Source: Morganella morganii
GTDB lineage: Bacteria > Pseudomonadota > Gammaproteobacteria > Enterobacterales > Enterobacteriaceae
Assembly (NCBI RefSeq): GCF_003996855.1
Contig: NZ_NRQY01000001.1
Span: 634,051 to 646,449, forward strand
DNA length: 12,399 nucleotides
Direction: 5' to 3'
Positions 1,344 through 7,570 of the stretch are shown here, piece after piece. The first letter of the stretch is position 1; each line of letters starts with the position of its first letter. Position numbers and translations under genes: made by a program. The notes under the pieces are model-generated. The model saw only the letters and a list, made by a program, of their open reading frames with translations. It made no database searches and had not been told where the DNA came from.

Positions 1344-1418
1344 GTCCTCTTAGTTAAATGGATATAACAAGCCCCTCCTAAGGGCTAATTGCAGGTTCGA
1401 TTCCTGCAGGGGACACCA
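1344..1418 (+). tRNA. argW: tRNA-Arg (anticodon CCU)
   Basis: A complete 75-nt tRNA. The acceptor stem pairs GTCCTCT with AGGGGAC (one G-T pair), followed by discriminator A and an encoded CCA at 1416-1418. The anticodon stem AGCCC/GGGCT holds the loop CTCCTAA with anticodon CCT at 1377-1379. The T arm reads GCAGGTTCGATTCCTGC. From memory it closely resembles enterobacterial argW, a known integration site (for example for prophage CPS-53/KplE1 in E. coli). It is flanked by an integrase on the left and phage gene remnants on the right, so it almost certainly serves as an attachment site here. No convincing promoter is visible in the 195 bp upstream, so expression is uncertain. Confidence 0.96.
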
Positions 1419-1544
1419 AGACCGGATAACCGCATATTGCTGCGTCCGTAAATCCGGGTCCTCACTCCATATCAGATACTGAACCGTGAAGTTATCTAGC
1501 AAACCAGCGCGGTTAAGATCGCGTTCAAATGCTCCGTAGATCAT
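1419..1544 (-). pseudogene. Truncated phage gene (tail-completion-like), cut at the tRNA
   Basis: An ATG at 1544 opens a frame beginning MIYGAFERDLN and reading about 42 residues, through LIWSEDPDLRTQQYAV, before it runs into the antisense of the tRNA gene. The start overlaps the stop of the upstream fragment in the compact GTATGA arrangement typical of phage structural operons. Continuing the frame through the tRNA only translates tRNA antisense, so the real coding sequence ends at 1419. I infer a small head-tail joining or tail-terminator type protein from its neighbour; the fragment alone is not diagnostic. It is probably not functional. Confidence 0.55.
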
Positions 1545-1699
1545 ACGTGCATCTCCTGCCACATTGCTGCCTCAATCTCATCACGCGAATCCTCAAAACC
1601 AAGTTTCAGGAACTCCTTTCGTGCAGTCGCACGCCGGAATTTCTGCTTAACTTTTGGGCCATGAACGAATACCGCATAGTTGGCAGAATAATGTAACAG
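1541..1699 (-). pseudogene. C-terminal remnant of an HK97 gp10-like phage tail protein
   Basis: About 52 residues remain, including YSANYAVFVHG, KFRRATARKEFL and GFEDSRDEIEAAM, ending at TGA 1541-1543. An aromatic/VHG segment followed by a charged FRRATA..FL helix resembles the C-terminal half of HK97 gp10-family minor tail proteins, which are usually well over 100 residues. The frame meets a stop at 1718-1720 and no start is available, so the N-terminal half is gone. The loss coincides with the start of the AT-rich leader of the recombinase cassette. The family assignment is by remembered pattern and is moderate at best. Confidence 0.5.
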
Positions 1700-1972
1700 T
1701 TCAGTTCTACAACACTTTCAGTTTTACCTGAATTATAAAATCAATAATTAAACAGCAATCCAATTCATAAGACACCTTATATTTACAATAAAAATGGCGA
1801 AAACAGCAGTAATATAGACAGTATTTTCAACATTCAGTTTTAAACCAAGTAAAGCTATAAAATTTTCAATTGATAAAACTCATCAAACGCTCCGTTTTTA
1901 TAAAAAAAAATTGAAATTAGTAAAAACAAAAACAATTATCACTGGGATATTTTATTTTTTTGGAGCGATTAC
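1700..1972. promoter_or_regulatory. AT-rich leader of the recombinase/ParB cassette with repeated decamer
   Basis: This 273-bp stretch is clearly richer in A and T than its surroundings and has no gene. TTCAGTTTTA occurs at 1717-1726 and 1833-1842, with a one-base variant TTCAGTTCTA at 1700-1709. All three are direct repeats on the plus strand. The region begins where the phage tail gene remnant is broken off and ends at the recombinase ribosome binding site. It is the obvious place for a promoter, for ParB-like binding sites and for the left recombination site of the cassette, but none is proven. Long A and T runs near 1900-1960 could also allow DNA bending. Confidence 0.4.
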
Positions 1973-3511
1973 TTGTCGATAAAAACAAACAATACCATCT
2001 ACGCAGCCGAATATATGCGAATGTCAACTGACCACCAAAAATACTCAATAGATAATCAGACTGGATATATAAGGGAGTATGCAAAAAAACACAATATTAC
2101 GATAATCAGATCATACAGTGATGCTGGTAAAAGCGGGTTGAATCTTTCTGGCAGGCCAGGCCTAAAAGCATTGATTGATGACGTTTTAGAGCATCGTATC
2201 GCTATATCATCAATTCTTGTTTACGATGTCAGCCGCTTTGGGCGATTCCAGGATACTGACGAAGCAGGCCATTATTCCCATCTACTTAAATTAAACGGGG
2301 TCAAAATCATTTATTGTGCTGAGCATTTCTCTGAGGCTCAGCCTGAAATGTTCACTCTGGGCCTGGCATTATCACGGCATGGTGCAGCGAGTTTCAGTCG
2401 AAACCAGTCTGAGAAAGTTTTCCTGGGCCAGGTAAACCTCATTAAAAAAGGTTACCACCAGGGGGGGCTGGCGGGTTATGGGCTCAGGCGCCTGTTAATC
2501 GATGAAAACCATACCCCTAAGGGAGAGCTGGAACACGGGCAACGCAAAAGTATTCAGACCGATCGGGTTATTCTGACACCCGGCCCCAGTGAAGAGATCA
2601 ACATCGTTAACCGCATCTTCGATATATTCAATGATGAAGGTAAACCAGAATTAGTCATCGCCTCTGAATTGAATCGCTGTCAGATCCTTGCTGAAAATGG
2701 AAGTTGCTGGAGCAGAGTAAAAGTACATCAGATCCTGACCAGTGAAAAATATATAGGGAACAGCGTTTATAACAAAACATCTTTCAAGTTAAAACAACAG
2801 TATGTTGTCAATCCAGAAGATGATTGGATACGTTACGATGGAGCCTACACGCCCATTATTGCGGTTGAAAAATTTAACCGGGCAAACGAAATTATCAGAG
2901 CACGTACCGCACGGCTATCAGAGGATGAACTGCTCGAGAAATTAAGAGTACTGTTGAGAAAAAAAGGAAGATTATCAGGAATTATCATTGATGAAGAAGA
3001 ACTTCTTCCATCCAGCAGTATTTATCGCTCTCGTTTTGGAAGTCTCTTACGTGTGTACCAATTAATCGGCTACACCCCAGAGACTGATTACACATGGTTA
3101 AAAACCAAACAACTGGTTAACGAGTTCAACGACCGGTCAACCCAAACAATTATCGATAACATCAGTCATGAAGGGGGATGGATAAGCGATACACCAGCAC
3201 CGGGAATACTTCACATCAATGATGAATTTACTCTTGCTATACAGTCTGCACGCTGTCAGCGCATCAACCCCAAAAGACTACGGTGGAAAATAAAATTCAG
3301 AACAATTTTCTCTCCTGATATCAGTATCGCTGTGAGAATGGACAGTTCGAATCAGTCTGCCGTTGATTATTATATATTTCCTGCGATAGATATTCTCTCC
3401 GAGAAAATATCATTAGAGGAAAGCAACCCTTATCAACTTGACCTGTATCGCTTTGATAACTTAACCCCCTTCTACCGGCTAATAAGAAGAATCAAATTAA
3501 AGGACTCATAA
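1973..3511 (+). CDS. Large serine recombinase, 512 aa, with HEAR-like C-terminal repeat
   Basis: A site-specific DNA recombinase of the resolvase/invertase superfamily. The catalytic domain (about residues 8-150) shows EYMRMSTDHQ, with probable nucleophile Ser18 and Arg16, and YDVSRFGRF with Arg88 and Arg91. A recombinase domain follows, with GYHQGGLAGYGLRR at 160-173 and YIGNSVYNK at 260-268. No CxxC zinc ribbon is visible. Instead, residues about 320-367 read LRVLLRKKGRLSG, then PSSSIYRSRFGSLL and YQLIGY, resembling homing-endonuclease-associated repeat segments. Residues 370-512 are unrecognised. The start is TTG at 1973, with GGAG seven bases upstream; I see no better start. Only one base separates its stop from the next gene, implying one operon with two ParB-like genes. 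The catalytic residues are intact, so it is probably active. Confidence 0.9.
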   Translation: MSIKTNNTIYAAEYMRMSTDHQKYSIDNQTGYIREYAKKHNITIIRSYSDAGKSGLNLSGRPGLKALIDDVLEHRIAISSILVYDVSRFGRFQDTDEAGHYSHLLKLNGVKIIYCAEHFSEAQPEMFTLGLALSRHGAASFSRNQSEKVFLGQVNLIKKGYHQGGLAGYGLRRLLIDENHTPKGELEHGQRKSIQTDRVILTPGPSEEINIVNRIFDIFNDEGKPELVIASELNRCQILAENGSCWSRVKVHQILTSEKYIGNSVYNKTSFKLKQQYVVNPEDDWIRYDGAYTPIIAVEKFNRANEIIRARTARLSEDELLEKLRVLLRKKGRLSGIIIDEEELLPSSSIYRSRFGSLLRVYQLIGYTPETDYTWLKTKQLVNEFNDRSTQTIIDNISHEGGWISDTPAPGILHINDEFTLAIQSARCQRINPKRLRWKIKFRTIFSPDISIAVRMDSSNQSAVDYYIFPAIDILSEKISLEESNPYQLDLYRFDNLTPFYRLIRRIKLKDS

Positions 3512-3512
3512 C

Positions 3513-4379
3513 ATGTCTGATGAAAAAGTTGTACTTATAAAAACAAACAAAATACTGGTCGTTAACCCTCGTCAGCGGGATGAATTCACTCATAAAGAAA
3601 TTAAAGAGAACATTCGTCAAATTGGTCTAAAGCGCCCTGTCACCGTTCGTAGAATCATTCACGATGAATATGAATTTGCTTTAATCTGTGGCCAGGGGAG
3701 ACTTGAAGCCTACATTCATTATCAGGAAGCATACATCCCGGCTATAGTAAAAAACGTCAATGAAGAAACAGGCCACCTGATGAGCCTAACTGAAAATATT
3801 GCCAGAAGGAAACCCCGGGCAACCGAACTTCTGGACAGTGTAAGGCAGTTAAAGAAGCAGGGGTTGACTGACAAGGAAATCGGTGAGCGACTGGGGTACG
3901 TAATCAGTTGGGTGCAGGGCGTAAGTAGCCTGCTGGAGAAAGGTGAGAAAAAACTATTGGCGGCCTTTGAGGCCGGTAATATTCCTTTATACCTTGCAGT
4001 AGAGATATCCCGGGCGACAGATGAGTCGATTCAGGACTCCCTGACAGAGGCATTGCTGAACGGCACTATCAAAGGTAAACAGATTAACATCATCAAGCGA
4101 ATTATTGACAATCGAAAAAATGGAAACAAAGGTTCAACGAATAAAGCATTCGCAACCAAGCGGGTTCAAAAGAAATATTCCCCAAAGGAGCTCGCTGTAA
4201 TGTATCAAAAAAACTCAGATGAACATAAAGAAATTCAAGCAAAAGCGCGATATTCCAGAGAAACACTCATGTTGGTAAAAGAAATATTCAGACAACTCAC
4301 TCAGAATAATGATTTTTGCGAATTGTTGAATAACAACAACAGTACTGATATGCCTGAGATATTATCCCCTGTACGATAA
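3513..4379 (+). CDS. ParB-like DNA-binding protein, first of pair (288 aa)
   Basis: A ParB/Spo0J-superfamily protein. The N-terminal ParB domain shows VNPRQR at 17-22, GLKRPVTV at 39-46, CGQGRLEA at 59-66 (the box equivalent to GERR) and LTENIARR at 92-99 (the ENxxR box). A helix-turn-helix lies near 116-142 (LTDKEIGERLGY, ISWVQGVSSL). The basic C-terminal part (about 196-288) is not diagnostic. Canonical ParB proteins bind parS sites and, through the N-terminal domain, CTP; here the CTP-box arginine is kept as QGR. No parA gene is present. AAGGA about nine bases upstream of the ATG is a good ribosome binding site, and the gene starts one base after the recombinase stop. I infer that it helps the recombinase, or marks DNA for it, rather than partitioning a plasmid. 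Confidence 0.88.
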   Translation: MSDEKVVLIKTNKILVVNPRQRDEFTHKEIKENIRQIGLKRPVTVRRIIHDEYEFALICGQGRLEAYIHYQEAYIPAIVKNVNEETGHLMSLTENIARRKPRATELLDSVRQLKKQGLTDKEIGERLGYVISWVQGVSSLLEKGEKKLLAAFEAGNIPLYLAVEISRATDESIQDSLTEALLNGTIKGKQINIIKRIIDNRKNGNKGSTNKAFATKRVQKKYSPKELAVMYQKNSDEHKEIQAKARYSRETLMLVKEIFRQLTQNNDFCELLNNNNSTDMPEILSPVR

Positions 4380-4394
4380 ATAGAGCGAGCGGAT

Positions 4395-5288
4395 ATGATT
4401 AAACAATGCTTTAACAACCATTTTCACCTTTACTCTGTCAGGAGCCTGTCGCCATCGAGATCGATCCCGGTTAATGTCAGGTCCAGCAATAAGTACAAAC
4501 AAATACTGACATCAATAGCTGAAATAGGTTTAATTGAGCCCATTATGATTTTTATTACGGACAACGGAGAACATAAAATCCTCGACGGGCATTTGCGTAT
4601 AGAAGCTTTAAAAGACCTGGCAATCACACATGCCCATTGCCTCATATCATCGGTTGAAGACACATACTCTTATAACAAACGGGTAAATCACTTGACCATA
4701 CTCCAAGAGCAAAGGATGCTCCAGAAAGCTGTGGAATCTGGTGTATCAGTCGAAAAATTGTGTGCCGTTCTTGGATTATCCCAGGGGATTATCAACACCA
4801 GGCTCCGTATTTCCGAAGGAATTTCAAAGGAAGCACTCGCGTTACTGGCTGATAAAAACGTGTCGCAGAATGTCTTCGATGTCCTCAGAAAGATAAAACC
4901 CTACAAACAGATGGATTTTGTGACCACAATGGTAACATTAAATAATGTTACTAAAAAATTCGCTCTGTCTATGTTACATGCCTTACCTCCAGAACATTTG
5001 GTCAGGAAGCCGGATAATGAACCCGATGATAGAGATATGGTCAAAACGCTAGCGCGACTTGAAAAAGAAATGGCCGCACTTCAGGTTGAAACGCAAGATA
5101 TCCAGAATGAATTTGCAGAAAACAATCTCAACCTGATGGTAGCGAGATCTTACATAGCAAAACTTCTCAGTAAGAATGAGATTATTCACTGGCTATATGA
5201 TAATAAAAGTGAATATCTGGACGTCTTGAAGAAGGTACTTGGGGTTAAACATCTTAATGAGGTTCAACCCGGGCAATATTCTGCCTGA
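4395..5288 (+). CDS. ParB-like protein with RepB-type C-terminal region, second of pair (297 aa)
   Basis: The N-terminal ParB-like domain shows GLIEPIMIF at 45-53 and ILDGHLRIEAL at 62-72, where DGHLR replaces the usual GERR-like box. The ENxxR motif is not clear; the equivalent region reads YNKRVNHLT near 93-101. A helix-turn-helix follows at about 117-137. Residues 168-285 resemble the RepB C-terminal domain (PF07506): YKQMDFVTTMV, then LARLEKEMAALQ (likely coiled coil) and LNLMVARSYIAKLLS. It starts 15 bases after the first ParB-like gene with a weak GAGCGAGCGGAT leader, consistent with translational coupling. The box differences suggest a divergent, possibly non-CTP-binding partner of the first ParB. 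No replication gene or ParA is nearby. Confidence 0.85.
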   Translation: MIKQCFNNHFHLYSVRSLSPSRSIPVNVRSSNKYKQILTSIAEIGLIEPIMIFITDNGEHKILDGHLRIEALKDLAITHAHCLISSVEDTYSYNKRVNHLTILQEQRMLQKAVESGVSVEKLCAVLGLSQGIINTRLRISEGISKEALALLADKNVSQNVFDVLRKIKPYKQMDFVTTMVTLNNVTKKFALSMLHALPPEHLVRKPDNEPDDRDMVKTLARLEKEMAALQVETQDIQNEFAENNLNLMVARSYIAKLLSKNEIIHWLYDNKSEYLDVLKKVLGVKHLNEVQPGQYSA

Positions 5289-5362
5289 CAGAAAACTAGT
5301 GACATAGTCATTCCTAGTCCGTTGTTCATCCTCCCGGCACATATTCATTCCAGAGATAATAA

Positions 5363-5388
5363 GGGTATCCATTACAGGATACCCACTT
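5363..5388 (+). terminator. Hairpin terminator after the recombinase/ParB operon
   Basis: GGGTATCC and GGATACCC form a perfect 8-bp stem around ATTACA, followed by ACTTTT. It lies about 75 bp after the second ParB-like stop. The U-tract is short, so termination may be partial. Confidence 0.5.
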
Positions 5389-5423
5389 TTCGAAGGTTAG
5401 CGGGGACTCTGACTGCGCCAAAG

Positions 5424-5641
5424 ACGGGGCACTTCTCTCACCTTCAGGCATCGGAATTACCCATATTCCTTTCAAGTCTGGCTGATTGCCATGGCAGTTG
5501 TATTACGCGTATAGCTACCAGTCTGTTGCTACTGAGCAGCGTACGTACTATCGAACTACGGGCTGCAGAATGGCAAGAGTTTGAGCTGGAGACGGCCTTA
5601 TCCGCGACGGATATGCTCATATACACTCCCTTGCAGTGTGT
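5424..5641 (+). pseudogene. Decayed P4-type integrase fragment
   Basis: An open plus-strand frame contains a clear internal piece of a P4-family integrase: HFSHLQASELPIFLSSLAD, then ITRIATSLLLLSSVRTIELR and AAEWQEFELE. The VRTIEL segment carries the first catalytic arginine. The N-terminal arm-binding and core domains are missing, as are the HxxR, LGH and tyrosine motifs; the frame stops at TAA 5646-5648 and the following bases show no more homology. Upstream codons of the same frame (from about 5322) do not look like integrase. It differs in sequence from the intact integrase at the left edge, so it is the relic of another element. It reads toward the repressor region, opposite to the 145-residue gene. 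Confidence 0.75.
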
Positions 5642-5692
5642 TCCGTAAATATTATTGAAAGGTAGATTCAGACAATGGATAAAATATAGAAA

Positions 5693-6130
5693 TTAATGCG
5701 TAGTTGTTTCTGTATCTTTATTTCTGACGGCATTCAGTCGTGAATCAATATCCGTAATTGCAGAACGCCCGAACCCTGGTGATATATATGCCTTGTTCAC
5801 AACTCTCCCGCAGAATTTAATCCGTTTCATTCCTTTTGACGGGCATTTCATTACCGGATGAGGTTCAGGCTCACCTCTGATATCACGGACATAGCGGTAC
5901 AGACGCGTGATGGCATCCGGAGCTACCTCATACTGCGGAATATAATGCCGCCCCTGTTTAACCATTCCCATTTTTATCAGACTGCCGATTTTATATAGAA
6001 CAGAGGTATATGTCCGGATAAAGACTTCAGATGTTCCGGTATATTGTGCAGCATCACTGTTGGTAAAACTATCATAGTCCCGGTATAACCGGATAATATT
6101 GACATATAGTTTAAATTTTTCCTCAGTCAT
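5693..6130 (-). CDS. Unrecognised 145-aa protein, possible winged-helix regulator
   Basis: I do not recognise the family. The N-terminal half (residues 1-65) is helical and looks like a winged-helix: YDSFTNSDAAQYTGTSE followed by VFIRTYTSVLYKIGSLIKMG and GRHYIPQYEV, as in small element-encoded regulators that sense promoter DNA. The C-terminal half is basic and Pro/Cys-containing (PVMKCPSKGMKRIKFCGRV), possibly unstructured. AGAGGATATAATT precedes the ATG, a good ribosome binding site. It is the second gene of a leftward unit starting from the strong promoter at 6421-6448, which appears to be controlled by the divergent S24 repressor. It could be a lytic-type regulator or accessory gene of a degraded satellite. 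Function is inference; that it is a gene is well supported. Confidence 0.7.
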   Translation of the reverse strand: MTEEKFKLYVNIIRLYRDYDSFTNSDAAQYTGTSEVFIRTYTSVLYKIGSLIKMGMVKQGRHYIPQYEVAPDAITRLYRYVRDIRGEPEPHPVMKCPSKGMKRIKFCGRVVNKAYISPGFGRSAITDIDSRLNAVRNKDTETTTH

Positions 6131-6161
6131 AATTATATCCTCTGAAAAATTATTCTGTGAA

Positions 6162-6368
6162 TTATCGGCTGCTTACCGTATTAAAAAGAGCAGCTTCAAT
6201 TTGTGTTATTAAATAACAGACAGGTAAATTTAAATGAATTAATTGAGTATAAATGTTGCCGGAAAATACCGGCCATAATCCCGCTTGCAGGACACTTTTT
6301 AATGGCGATGCTTTTGCATGCCGGTGCCGGTTACACACAATGGTGTGAGTCAGGGAGTTCGTGCGCAT
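6162..6368 (-). CDS. Small leftward ORF (68 aa) in the immunity region
   Basis: The frame begins MRTNSLTHTIVCNRHRH and continues through LQAGLWPVFSGNIY to AALFNTVSSR. It is the first ORF downstream of the leftward promoter and ends 31 bases before the 145-residue gene. Its position next to a CI-like repressor and its general style remind me of the small ash/Icd-like proteins of P4-type elements, but I cannot confirm that from sequence. The ATG has only a weak leader (GCGCTGAAAA), with no clear Shine-Dalgarno. It may be poorly translated or a leader whose RNA matters more than its protein. Confidence 0.4.
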   Translation of the reverse strand: MRTNSLTHTIVCNRHRHAKASPLKSVLQAGLWPVFSGNIYTQLIHLNLPVCYLITQIEAALFNTVSSR

Positions 6369-6420
6369 TTTTCAGCGCAGACTGTTAAAGAGCGGTGCAA
6401 CATTATCTGTTGATGAATTA

Positions 6421-6448
6421 ATAATACTATAAATATTAAATGTGTCAA
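6421..6448 (-). promoter_or_regulatory. Strong leftward sigma70 promoter
   Basis: On the minus strand a perfect TTGACA (6443-6448) is followed, after a 16-bp spacer, by TATTAT (6421-6426). Transcription should start near 6414 and run left through the 68- and 145-residue ORFs. The -10 overlaps the candidate operator at 6423-6437, so the divergent repressor is well placed to shut it off. Confidence 0.7.
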
Positions 6449-6494
6449 TATCTTTAGTATTTACAAAGGCCCGAATTTTGGTATTACTATAGTA
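6423..6494. promoter_or_regulatory. Candidate repressor operators (TACT/AGTA sites)
   Basis: Three related sites lie between the divergent units. AATACTATAAATATT (6423-6437) is a near-palindrome with one mismatch. AGTATTT at 6456-6462 is a single half-site. TACTATAGTA (6485-6494) is a perfect 10-bp palindrome reaching the first base of the repressor start codon. A fourth related site, AAATACTTTGAGTATTT, lies after the repressor. Their arrangement suits a self-regulating CI-like repressor, but the sites are not proven. Confidence 0.45.
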
Positions 6495-7201
6495 TGAATG
6501 AAAAACGACAACTGACGACAGAACAGCTGGAAGACTGCCGAAGACTGAAAGCTTTGTATGAGTCAAAGAAAAAAGCGCTGGGTATCACCCAACAGAGCAT
6601 TGCTGACATACTGAATATTAGTCAGGGCGCTGTCGGTCACTATCTTAATGGCCGTAACGCATTAAATTTACAGACAGCCAGTATATTTTCCGCGCAACTT
6701 AATGTCCCGATTTCTGATTTCAGTCCGTCTCTCGCCACAGAGGCACAGGCACTGAGCGCCGCTATTGACAGCAATATTTCCGGTCTTCGTCCTTACAAAC
6801 CCTCCCCGCGATATCCTGTGATAAACTGGGTACAGGCAGGTGCCTGGAATGAAGCAAATGAGGCTTACGGGTTAGATCAAATCGATGAGTGGTATGAATC
6901 GGAAATCCATGTTCAGGGTGCCGCATTCTGGCTGAGAGTCGAAGGAGATTCCATGACTGCTCCGACCGGAAAAAGTGTACCTGACGGCTCGCTGATCCTT
7001 ATCGATACCGGCAAAGATTCCGGAAACGGCAGTCTGGTCGTCGCAAAACTGACGGATTCCAATGAAGCAACATTCAAAAAACTGGTTATCGACGGAGGCA
7101 ACTGGTATCTGAAAGGACTTAATCCGGCATGGCCGGTGATGAAGGTCAACGGTGACTGCAAAATTATCGGTGTCGCTGTTCAGATGATGATGAAACTGTA
7201 A
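6494..7201 (+). CDS. S24-family phage repressor (CI/LexA-like), 235 aa
   Basis: A lambda CI-type repressor. The N-terminal helix-turn-helix is at about 32-54 (TQQSIADILNISQGAVGHYL, then NGRNALN). A linker runs to about 105. The C-terminal S24 peptidase domain has the autocleavage site VQAG (Ala115-Gly116), the nucleophile Ser153 in EGDSM and the general-base lysine in ATFKKL (Lys195). All self-cleavage elements are intact, so RecA-stimulated inactivation in the SOS response is expected by family analogy. No ribosome binding site precedes the ATG, and a TATAGT-like box abuts it; translation may be weak or nearly leaderless, as with lambda cI from PRM. It is divergent from a strongly promoted leftward unit, the classic lysogeny-switch layout, yet no other intact phage genes are nearby. 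Confidence 0.93.
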   Translation: MNEKRQLTTEQLEDCRRLKALYESKKKALGITQQSIADILNISQGAVGHYLNGRNALNLQTASIFSAQLNVPISDFSPSLATEAQALSAAIDSNISGLRPYKPSPRYPVINWVQAGAWNEANEAYGLDQIDEWYESEIHVQGAAFWLRVEGDSMTAPTGKSVPDGSLILIDTGKDSGNGSLVVAKLTDSNEATFKKLVIDGGNWYLKGLNPAWPVMKVNGDCKIIGVAVQMMMKL

Positions 7202-7230
7202 TCATCCTTCTGCCTGTGTGCATCTCTGAA

Positions 7231-7247
7231 AAATACTTTGAGTATTT
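7231..7247. repeat. Perfect palindrome AAATACT-TTG-AGTATTT after the repressor
   Basis: Seven-base arms with a 3-base spacer, 30 bp after the repressor stop. It matches the TACT/AGTA operator pattern upstream of the repressor, so it may be another operator controlling the following 80-residue ORF. Followed by ATTTTTA, it could instead be a weak AT-rich terminator for the repressor. Confidence 0.45.
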
Positions 7248-7327
7248 ATTTTTACTTACAGAAATACCATAACAAAATAATACTAACCTTATTTTTATGA
7301 ATACTCAGAAAAGTAAAGGAGGCACAA

Positions 7328-7570
7328 ATGAGTTGCCGCGGATATCATTGCGCCAGAGCCCGCCGGTCTGCCCGCAGACAACAATTACAGGCAGAGTACC
7401 GGCTTAATGCGGAGTTGAAAGCGGCTATCAACGGAGAACGCGATGAAAAAGAACCAGTGTTAGCTCTGAACAGACGGCCGATGAACAGAGTCACAAAAGC
7501 CCTTTCAGCCCGCCATACCTGTACTGAGAATTCTGCCGGAATGAGTGTATTTTCGAAGACAGGTCAGTAA
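7328..7570 (+). CDS. Arg-rich small protein of unknown function (80 aa)
   Basis: I do not recognise this protein. It begins MSCRGYHCARARRSARRQQ, is strongly basic at the N-terminus, has a short charged helix (LNAELKAAINGERDEKEP), then a second basic part (LNRRPMNRVTKALSARHTC). It has no signal peptide or membrane segment. AAAGGAGG five bases before the ATG is one of the best ribosome binding sites in the window, which supports expression. It lies about 125 bp after the repressor, behind an AT-rich region with a TACT/AGTA palindrome, and could be a nucleic-acid-binding accessory of the same element. That role is inference from charge and place only. Confidence 0.6.
   Translation: MSCRGYHCARARRSARRQQLQAEYRLNAELKAAINGERDEKEPVLALNRRPMNRVTKALSARHTCTENSAGMSVFSKTGQ

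Follow-up and report, generated by a model that had tools for sequence, protein, structure and literature searches.

The window (the whole stretch of 12,399 nucleotides that was analyzed) contains a trio of tightly packed genes, rec, gene A and gene B, which encode a large serine recombinase (REC), a ParB-like protein (protein A) and a RepB-type protein (protein B). Their coordinates and those of the neighbouring features are summarized in Table 1. The gaps given in the original prediction, 1 base between rec and gene A (3512) and 15 bases between genes A and B (4380-4394), were exact, and the lack of ParA in the window was borne out with a home-made ParA model; the Pfam scan in the window covered eight proteins. 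The bounds of the unit, first placed at 1700-5390, are better set at about 1801-5409, from the limits of homology to a genome of the genus Serratia (G834).

Table 1. Features of the trio and its immediate surroundings in the window.
Feature	Position	Strand	Remarks
tRNA-Arg (CCT)	1344..1418	+	ARAGORN, Rfam; left boundary of the module-bearing island
Phage tail-terminator fragment	1350-1562	minus	Beside tRNA-Arg, left of the trio
Left-end motif AAACAGCAGTAATATAGACA	1801..1820		20 bp; candidate att half-site or left terminus
Large serine recombinase (REC)	1973..3511	+	512 aa, TTG start
ParB-like protein A (PBA)	3513..4379	+	288 aa
RepB-type protein B (RBB)	4395..5288	+	297 aa
ORF with 5′-truncated tyrosine-integrase fragment	5322..5648	+	Right neighbour of the trio
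Terminator-like hairpin	5363..5390	+	GGGTATCC-ATTACA-GGATACCC, then ACTTTT; direct reading of the sequence
Right edge GCGGGGACTC	5400..5409		Identical in G834; candidate right terminus; homology stops at 5409

The trio lies in an island that spans about 1432-7558 of the window. A related genome (G488) has the same tRNA-Arg, but there it is not followed by 1432-7558. The trio had been described as sitting between two integration relics, which fits the right side. On the right, the integrase homology (5403-5601) starts at the module edge, and the fragment matched the integrase of the E. coli locus L110 in tblastn (aa 204-271) and the integrase genes of two genomes (G001 and G002) at the DNA level (78-81%). 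On the left, the neighbours are the tRNA-Arg and the phage tail-terminator fragment, and the integrase gene at 3-1148, which reaches the window edge without closing, shows no visible sign of being a relic.

Concerning REC, Pfam matches were obtained to Resolvase (PF00239, E 9e-21) and Recombinase (PF07508, E 6e-19), and residues R16, S18, R61, R88 and R91 were 100% conserved in 95-96 aligned homologues. The best Foldseek matches of its structure model, the pTM of which was only 0.50, were the serine-integrase complexes 9dxd and 9dxf (E 9e-17 and 6e-16), with alignments some 320-370 columns long when gaps are counted. No zinc-ribbon was found in REC by Pfam at E 0.1, and its C-terminal part had no Pfam match. 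The lack of a Pfam zinc-ribbon match leaves room for a control of synapsis supplied by the partners.

Protein A matched ParB_N (PF02195, E 2.5e-9) and RepB (PF07506, E 6e-10) in Pfam, and Spo0J (1vz0, E 1e-9) and also Noc in phmmer. In the window it contains the boxes CGQGR and ENIARR. The first of them appeared as CG[QE]GR in 80/80 protein A sequences, and the ENxAR box (the Mg/nucleotide box ENxxR of ParB) was invariant, with E94, N95 and R98 in 100% of the 80 sequences. The canonical CTPase box of ParB is GERR, in the place of which protein A has CG[QE]GR. Protein B matched RepB (PF07506, E 3e-27), while ParB_N scored only below the cut-off. It has a ParB-like N-domain with divergent boxes and a long C-terminal helix, and its AlphaFold model (pLDDT 85) was matched by Foldseek to ParB/Noc (E 3e-9). 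The ENxxR box is absent from protein B, where most of 81 sequences have YNKRVN; there is no glutamate at that place, and the alignment with Noc is gapped just before it. So, the boxes predicted for protein A were confirmed, but the RepB-type region, ascribed earlier to one protein only, is present in both. Taking together the invariant boxes of protein A and the ParB-like fold of protein B, it is plausible that the pair acts as a DNA-sliding or synapsis-control partner of REC, in which protein A would bind CTP.

The conservation of the trio was studied in 105 related loci fetched via a partner protein, a set in which REC-family members without partners are thus uncounted. All three genes occurred in the same order in 95 of them, and a tabulation of 77 loci, with longest-ORF starts, showed that rec and gene A mostly overlap, by a few bases. 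Purifying selection on each of the three genes is strong, with pN of 0.12-0.22 per gene vs pS of 0.76-0.88 in three comparisons. The records belong to alpha-, beta- and gammaproteobacteria, one acidobacterial MAG and viral contigs, and records under the names Serratia quinivorans, Yersinia, Enterobacter, Salmonella and Klebsiella had protein B at 91-94% identity. Of 394 genomes from the order that includes Serratia, 6 were positive at E 1e-15, the window's own genome included, which indicates a sporadic occurrence. The titles and abstract openings of the literature searched contained no description of the trio and no function for it.

The ends of the homology were sharp. The window and G834 were 89% identical over 1802-5409 and showed no homology beyond; its beginning at 1802 coincides with the left motif, and the terminator-like hairpin is also present in G834. 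The motif AAACAGCAGTAATATAGACA was common to five enterobacterial copies (the window, L007 and G834 of the genus Serratia, L009 of Yersinia and L010 of Trabulsiella), 160-190 bp upstream of rec and within otherwise unconserved DNA, and it was absent, allowing up to 4 mismatches, from L106, L108, L109, L110, L112 and L156. The right edges of the module differ among clades, and GCGGGGACTC was absent within 3 kb of the gene B end in L007, L009 and L010. Sharp ends were observed also in Pseudomonas, alphaproteobacterial and E. coli copies. A block of about 3.5 kb of P. fragi, running from about 120 bp before rec to the gene B end, was found without its flanks in 8/298 further Pseudomonas genomes searched, in one of which the contig ends there, whereas some Pseudomonas and some alphaproteobacterial copies had flanks common to one another. 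In an E. coli ICE, the homology of two copies stops at the gene B stop. A sister ICE (L157) has a methyltransferase gene in place of the trio and, being occupied in this way, was rejected as a clean empty site; the E. coli ST540 locus (L111) was rejected as an empty allele because unrelated DNA lies behind its integrase.

The idea of a self-mobile cassette was strengthened by the sharp ends against G834 and the recurring Pseudomonas block, but no empty site or excision was found. No other Pseudomonas genome was seen with both flanks and without the module, no empty site for G834 was seen within its genus among the matches listed, and no excised circle was found. In the window, no att duplication was detected by direct-strand comparison, the tRNA 3′ end being single and the left and right flanks dissimilar. 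Adjacency to a tRNA was rejected as a general rule, since tRNAs close to the trio were few in an ARAGORN scan of 102 loci. Within 6 kb of the trio, 16/104 loci had tyrosine integrases that belong to a single similarity cluster, and in E. coli L110, L112 and L114 they are directly upstream of it, so that the trio could hitch-hike. Downstream of the module there is a 5′-truncated integrase in four cases (the window, G834, E. coli L110 and L115), which may be a mere reflection of layered tRNA-hotspot islands.

The conserved order, the intact and selected proteins, the horizontal spread and the sharp ends in differing neighbourhoods led us to favour, with moderate confidence, the reading that the three genes work as a single functional unit, a horizontally mobile module of about 3.6 kb in which the ParB-like pair controls the recombinase. 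REC would carry out DNA cutting and joining and would itself move the unit. Protein A may be a nucleotide-dependent clamp of the ParB type and protein B its ParB-fold partner, and both together would load REC on its site and control synapsis or direction, in the role otherwise played by an excision (directionality) factor. They would probably repress the operon too; no universal palindromic operator or parS was found upstream of rec across groups. The putative termini of the unit would be the 20-bp left motif and the right edge at 5400-5409, and it is carried in genomic islands. Besides the empty sites not found and the nearby tyrosine integrases, points that speak against this reading are the absence of the left motif from six enterobacterial copies, the variable right edges, the flanks that some copies have in common, the atypical boxes of proteins A and B, and the low pTM of the REC model.

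It is also possible, with a lower probability that still deserves attention, that the trio is cargo, i.e., an island accessory system for defence, maintenance or regulation that uses REC enzymatically and is shuffled by host recombination and foreign integrases. Such a system would fit with its position 23 bases past a fimbrial gene in three E. coli ICE copies (L106-L108), with the 616/5426 E. coli genomes that have at least 80% of a stretch where an intact tyrosine integrase comes before the trio (the insertion places having been inspected singly for a few only), and with the mild enrichment of T-arm-like tRNA traces within 2 kb of the trio (11 in 349 kb vs 9 in 940 kb farther away). The homology, however, ends as sharply as in an element proper, and the adjacent genes vary, the top Pfam family accounting for only 7/75 of the nearest downstream ORFs and 4/81 of the upstream ones. 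Defence-type neighbours within 6 kb would also fit with cargo (ZacB/ZacC-like in 11/104 loci, UvrD/GajB-like helicases in 7/104, and, in smaller groups, TOTE primase-helicase, type I restriction and DUF6119), but these tallies have no random-genome control. PADLOC gave only weak matches for protein B (E 4e-5) and REC (E 9e-3), none for protein A, and no agreement with a known-defence model. The fimbrial neighbourhood of L106-L108 could suggest instead a local DNA-inversion switch for neighbouring genes, as invertases exist among serine recombinases. This is very improbable, since that fimbrial operon owns an annotated tyrosine-type DNA invertase, the neighbours differ outside L106-L108, and a screen of the 200 bp ahead of rec gave few inverted repeats with arms of at least 8 bp (Pseudomonas L013 and L028 have a hairpin with 8-bp arms, and other hairpins occur in L039, L053 and L110).

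The names given by Pfam and GenBank ("RepB plasmid partitioning"), the plasmid-borne location of some copies and the decayed copy L006, with gene B alone, could be taken as signs of a plasmid partition-locus remnant (ParB/RepB without ParA) beside an unrelated resolvase. Against this, an ORF for ParA, screened with a model built from seven ParA-type proteins, was found in only 1/104 loci, 7 kb from the trio; proteins A and B are coupled to the recombinase, with strong selection on all three genes; and protein A missed the RepABC RepB equivalog TIGR03454 (27.4 vs 201.5 bits), for which no match of protein B was listed at E 0.1. The remnant was rejected on these grounds as extremely improbable. 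The gene-neighbourhood comparison, intended to reveal homologues lying mostly apart or beside parA, found them mostly together, with ParA near almost none of them, and so the original prediction survived it. The likeness to RepB of repABC plasmids lies in the PF07506 C-terminal region, while many copies of the trio, unlike repABC, are chromosomal.

A covarying structured RNA of about 140 nt was found in 47/100 sources searched, nearly always directly after gene B. The covariance model did not find it in the window, L007, L009 or L010. Rfam gave no match at the structured RNA that reached the gathering score in six RNA-bearing loci plus the window, and in a permissive scan of L051 all matches were far below gathering scores. 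It is conceivable, though rather doubtful, that the system in its major form works as a ribonucleoprotein, made of REC, two ParB-family clamps and the RNA directly 3′ of gene B, the latter serving target choice or synapsis as a scaffold, a guide or an ssDNA-like recombination site. The RNA would then have been lost, never present or replaced (e.g., by the conserved end motif) in the enterobacterial, Pseudomonas and Burkholderiales copies of this analysis, the window among them.

Compared to known systems, the module with the ParB-like pair resembles the serine integrases with their recombination directionality factors (RDF; SPbeta YokA-YotN, phiC31, Bxb1) in the catalytic and recombinase domains, the catalytic residues and the fold, and in the pairing of an integrase with a dedicated protein partner, the RDF role of proteins A and B being putative. 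It differs from them in that REC has no Pfam zinc-ribbon and a C-terminal part without Pfam match, and in that two ParB-family partners are encoded in the same operon. With the CTP clamps ParB, Noc and KorB, it shares the alignment of both proteins with Spo0J/Noc and the ENxxR box kept by protein A, but GERR is replaced in protein A, protein B does not have the Glu of ENxxR, and the pair is tied to a recombinase with ParA near almost none of the loci. Like CcrAB/CcrC of SCCmec, REC is a large serine recombinase encoded within a chromosomal cassette, here a putatively mobile one, although its match to CcrB was weak (63.9 bits, far under the 900-bit NCBIfam equivalog cut-off) and no common target was seen for the trio. 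To our knowledge, the described Ccr systems have no ParB-like partners, and we know of no serine recombinase that works with ParB-type clamps or with a dedicated RNA.

If the proposal is true, the trio would be a compact large serine recombinase under RNA or clamp control, of use for genome engineering. It would explain a set of genes often annotated as "plasmid partitioning", and it may supply the mover for island DNA. More generally, it opens a wider question to direct test, namely if CTP clamps that slide on DNA are able to determine in which direction, or at which site, site-specific recombination proceeds.

In the window, the gaps of 1 and 15 bases between the genes for the large serine recombinase (REC), the ParB-like protein A and the RepB-type protein B agree with the tight packing described in the original prediction. 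An alignment search for relatives of B gave 297 on genome contigs, of which the best 80 were taken, and 19 on viral contigs; with six plasmid or phage loci these made up a set of 105. The homologues of the three genes were found together rather than apart, with REC, A and B matches in order in 95 of the 105 loci, a count that leaves out partnerless REC relatives because the loci were chosen by the partner proteins. REC is partial or broken in a few of the 95 (L008, L017, L043, L045, L056). The ten loci without the full trio comprise five clipped by the stretch start, two with weak partial matches and three (L006, L027, L044) in which B stands alone or has decayed. ParA was nearly absent as well: a search model made from seven proteins found a single ParA ORF in 104 loci, 7 kb from the trio.

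Coordinates of features in the window (no prefix) and in related loci (prefix L)
Feature	Position	Placement	Domains or remarks
REC, large serine recombinase	1973-3511	first of three co-directional genes	Resolvase + Recombinase domains
A	3513-4379	second gene	ParB N-domain + RepB-type region
B	4395-5288	third gene	strong RepB-type region, sub-threshold ParB N-domain
REC residues 140-145	2390-2425	near catalytic domain end	SFSRNQ; EYSREL in most homologues
ORF	5693-6130 (minus)	inside trio island	no Pfam/NCBIfam family match at E 0.1
S24-type phage repressor	6494-7201	inside trio island	HTH_3 + Peptidase_S24
Divergent HTH gene (example)	L041:6685-7302 (minus)	upstream of rec	~205 aa, C-terminal part HTH_DeoR
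Predicted RNA, example copy	L051:10882-11044
Predicted RNA, second copy	L061:17572-17734	6.7 kb downstream of trio	gene B relative absent from surrounding fetched stretch
chrB-a cis-regulatory RNA	L012:9910-9995 (minus)	near acidobacterial trio copy	Rfam
Stretches in trio islands	L159:20831-24979; L160:17425-21795		two adjoining tyrosine recombinases + third protein, and relaxase gene

Among relatives the coding regions of the trio mostly abut or overlap. Between the window and the Serratia, Yersinia and Trabulsiella copies, pN was 0.12–0.22 for each gene, with synonymous sites close to saturation. The catalytic residues of REC are invariant (95–96 sequences), A keeps both CG[QE]GR and ENxAR in 80 of 80 sequences, and B keeps DGxxR and an asparagine, the place of ENxxR being without glutamate (81 sequences). 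The trio proteins fell far short of the cut-offs of the SCCmec recombinase and repABC RepB equivalog models, and PADLOC gave nothing beyond two weak matches. The predicted structure of REC (pLDDT 78, pTM 0.50) resembles serine-integrase complexes, best the integrase–RDF complex 9dxd (E 9e-17, TM-score 0.43, 325 alignment columns). Because the Pfam Recombinase domain ends at residue 310, the part uncovered by the fold match would be the C-terminal ~200 residues. The model of B (pLDDT 85), with a long helix at residues 213–258, resembles ParB and Noc (E 3e-9); A matches Spo0J and Noc at sequence level.

Concerning the surroundings in the window, the trio is bordered on the left by a tRNA-Arg, accompanied by a phage tail-terminator fragment, and on the right by a tyrosine integrase fragment. 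The related genome G488 has the same tRNA-Arg followed by different DNA, and the common core restarts at 7559; the window island therefore spans about 1432–7558. A separate, diverged trio (45–48% protein identity) lies elsewhere in G488. The best comparison, G834 of the genus Serratia, is 89% identical across 1802–5409, and similarity outside that interval was absent. The left edge of this homology is base two of a 20-bp motif, also kept 160–190 bp before rec in the Serratia, Yersinia and Trabulsiella loci (L007, L009, L010), with unconserved DNA to its left; it was not found in six further enterobacterial copies (L106, L108, L109, L110, L112, L156). Such a pattern would be expected of the attachment half-site of an integrated element, though the motif may instead be an operator or promoter. 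The right edge lies directly past a terminator-like hairpin, and integrase-fragment homology begins at 5403; a 5′-truncated integrase follows the module in G834 and two E. coli loci (L110, L115) too. In G834 (L252, a tRNA-Phe hotspot), remnants of tyrosine-integrase C-termini flank the module on both sides, and a 433-codon integrase ORF is present.

In many relatives a conserved non-coding block of ~140 nt, predicted to form a structured RNA, lies directly 3′ of gene B, at about −13 to +80 nt from its estimated end by DNA profile, the sole exception among tabulated matches being the additional L061 copy. Many copies open with a short ATG...TAA reading frame. RNAalifold on 39 sequences predicted 31 pairs, made up of five stems and some weak pairing at the 5′ side; 11 of the 31 show compensatory double changes. 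For the five stems (27 pairs), pairing cells reached 98.2% (shuffles 92.1%, slid versions 30–45%), double-change cells 82 (shuffles 23.7) and the covariation score 0.272 (shuffles 0.151), none of 500 shuffles being as high on any of the three, with covariation counts inflated by sequence kinship. Pair types were a less telling measure (28 versus 25.1, with 20 of 500 shuffles as high). The covariance model gave 48 strong matches (at least 85 bits) in 47 of 100 sources, 33 of them used in the model and 14 outside it; L068 has a degenerate match (21.5 bits), and all remaining matches score at most 13.1 bits and count as noise. No match to this model came from the window, and no Rfam family matched the RNA in scans of six RNA-bearing loci. 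Three of 20 RNA-bearing genomes have a second strong copy (behind another gene B, behind a deleted REC–B remnant, and without gene B in the fetched DNA), four additional matches being weak. In a decayed module (L240, G815:C22), the REC front adjoins the gene B tail with the RNA retained behind. On a 61-row REC tree, a quick build with some long branches, RNA presence takes 11 changes against a shuffled mean of 20.1, and the RNA is missing from the seven-row enterobacterial branch that includes the window.

At distant sensitivity the window trio matched 649 of 5426 E. coli genomes; among 20 matches listed, six cover 78% of the trio and the rest 12–15%. At least 80% of the integrase-plus-trio stretch of the ssrA island (L110) occurs in 616 of 5426, with few places inspected. 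In the order of Serratia the trio was found in 6 of 394 genomes, and among the matches listed (120 of 280 proteins) B is 91–94% identical in records of five enterobacterial genera. A divergent HTH gene, whose product is likely a regulator, lies upstream of rec in 46 of 104 loci, with no enterobacterial locus among the matches listed.

Within 6 kb of the trio there are clusters of ZacB/ZacC-like, UvrD/GajB-like, TOTE-type, type I restriction and DUF6119 proteins. A Pfam scan of the nearest ORFs (75 of 84 downstream, 81 of 89 upstream) ranked DEAD/Helicase_C first downstream (7/75) and Acyltransferase first upstream (4/81); integrases, UvrD, TOTE and DUF6119 are among the next-ranked families (25 of 73 and 25 of 71 listed), several counts including close kin of one lineage. 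As these tallies are without a random control, any defence-gene enrichment is an impression. Next to the trio in loci L110, L115, L109, L004 and L135 (E. coli, Rhizobium and another Serratia-order genome) lies a DUF6119/TIGR04141 protein, and the E. coli loci among them have His-Xaa-Ser maturation genes as well.

No description of the trio was found in a literature search of titles and abstract openings, a body that leaves most subscription papers outside. The reading we favour, at about an even chance, is that the trio is a mobile recombination module in which the ParB-like pair of A and B would load on module DNA and set the timing, place or direction of recombination by REC. In many locus pairs homology stops right outside the trio, or outside the trio plus the divergent HTH gene; other pairs have kilobases of flank in common. 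A block of P. fragi DNA (L052) that starts ~120 bp ahead of rec and stops where gene B ends was found again, minus the surrounding P. fragi sequence, in seven further Pseudomonas genomes; an eighth has it at a contig end (8 of 298 searched). For two of these copies, genus members share no flanks in empty-site fashion, and no empty site, duplication or circle was found in the window, Pseudomonas or Serratia-genus comparisons.

Other E. coli settings of the trio are an ICE, in which a fimbrial gene precedes it by 23 bases (L106–L108), and a thrW island, with gene B disrupted by an IS66 element (L109/L159). In the ICE, L106/L108 homology ends at the gene B stop and the next genes differ, while the sister ICE L157 has a methyltransferase in place of the trio. 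This cargo-exchange spot, with the fimbrial operon on one side and the creatininase gene on the other, holds the trio with an FMN-binding gene, the trio with a hypothetical gene, or the methyltransferase. The main rival to the mobile-module reading, a serious but less probable one, is that the trio is island cargo, moved by others. The boldest reading, an RNA-assisted recombinase complex that is lacking in the branch of the window, seems improbable.
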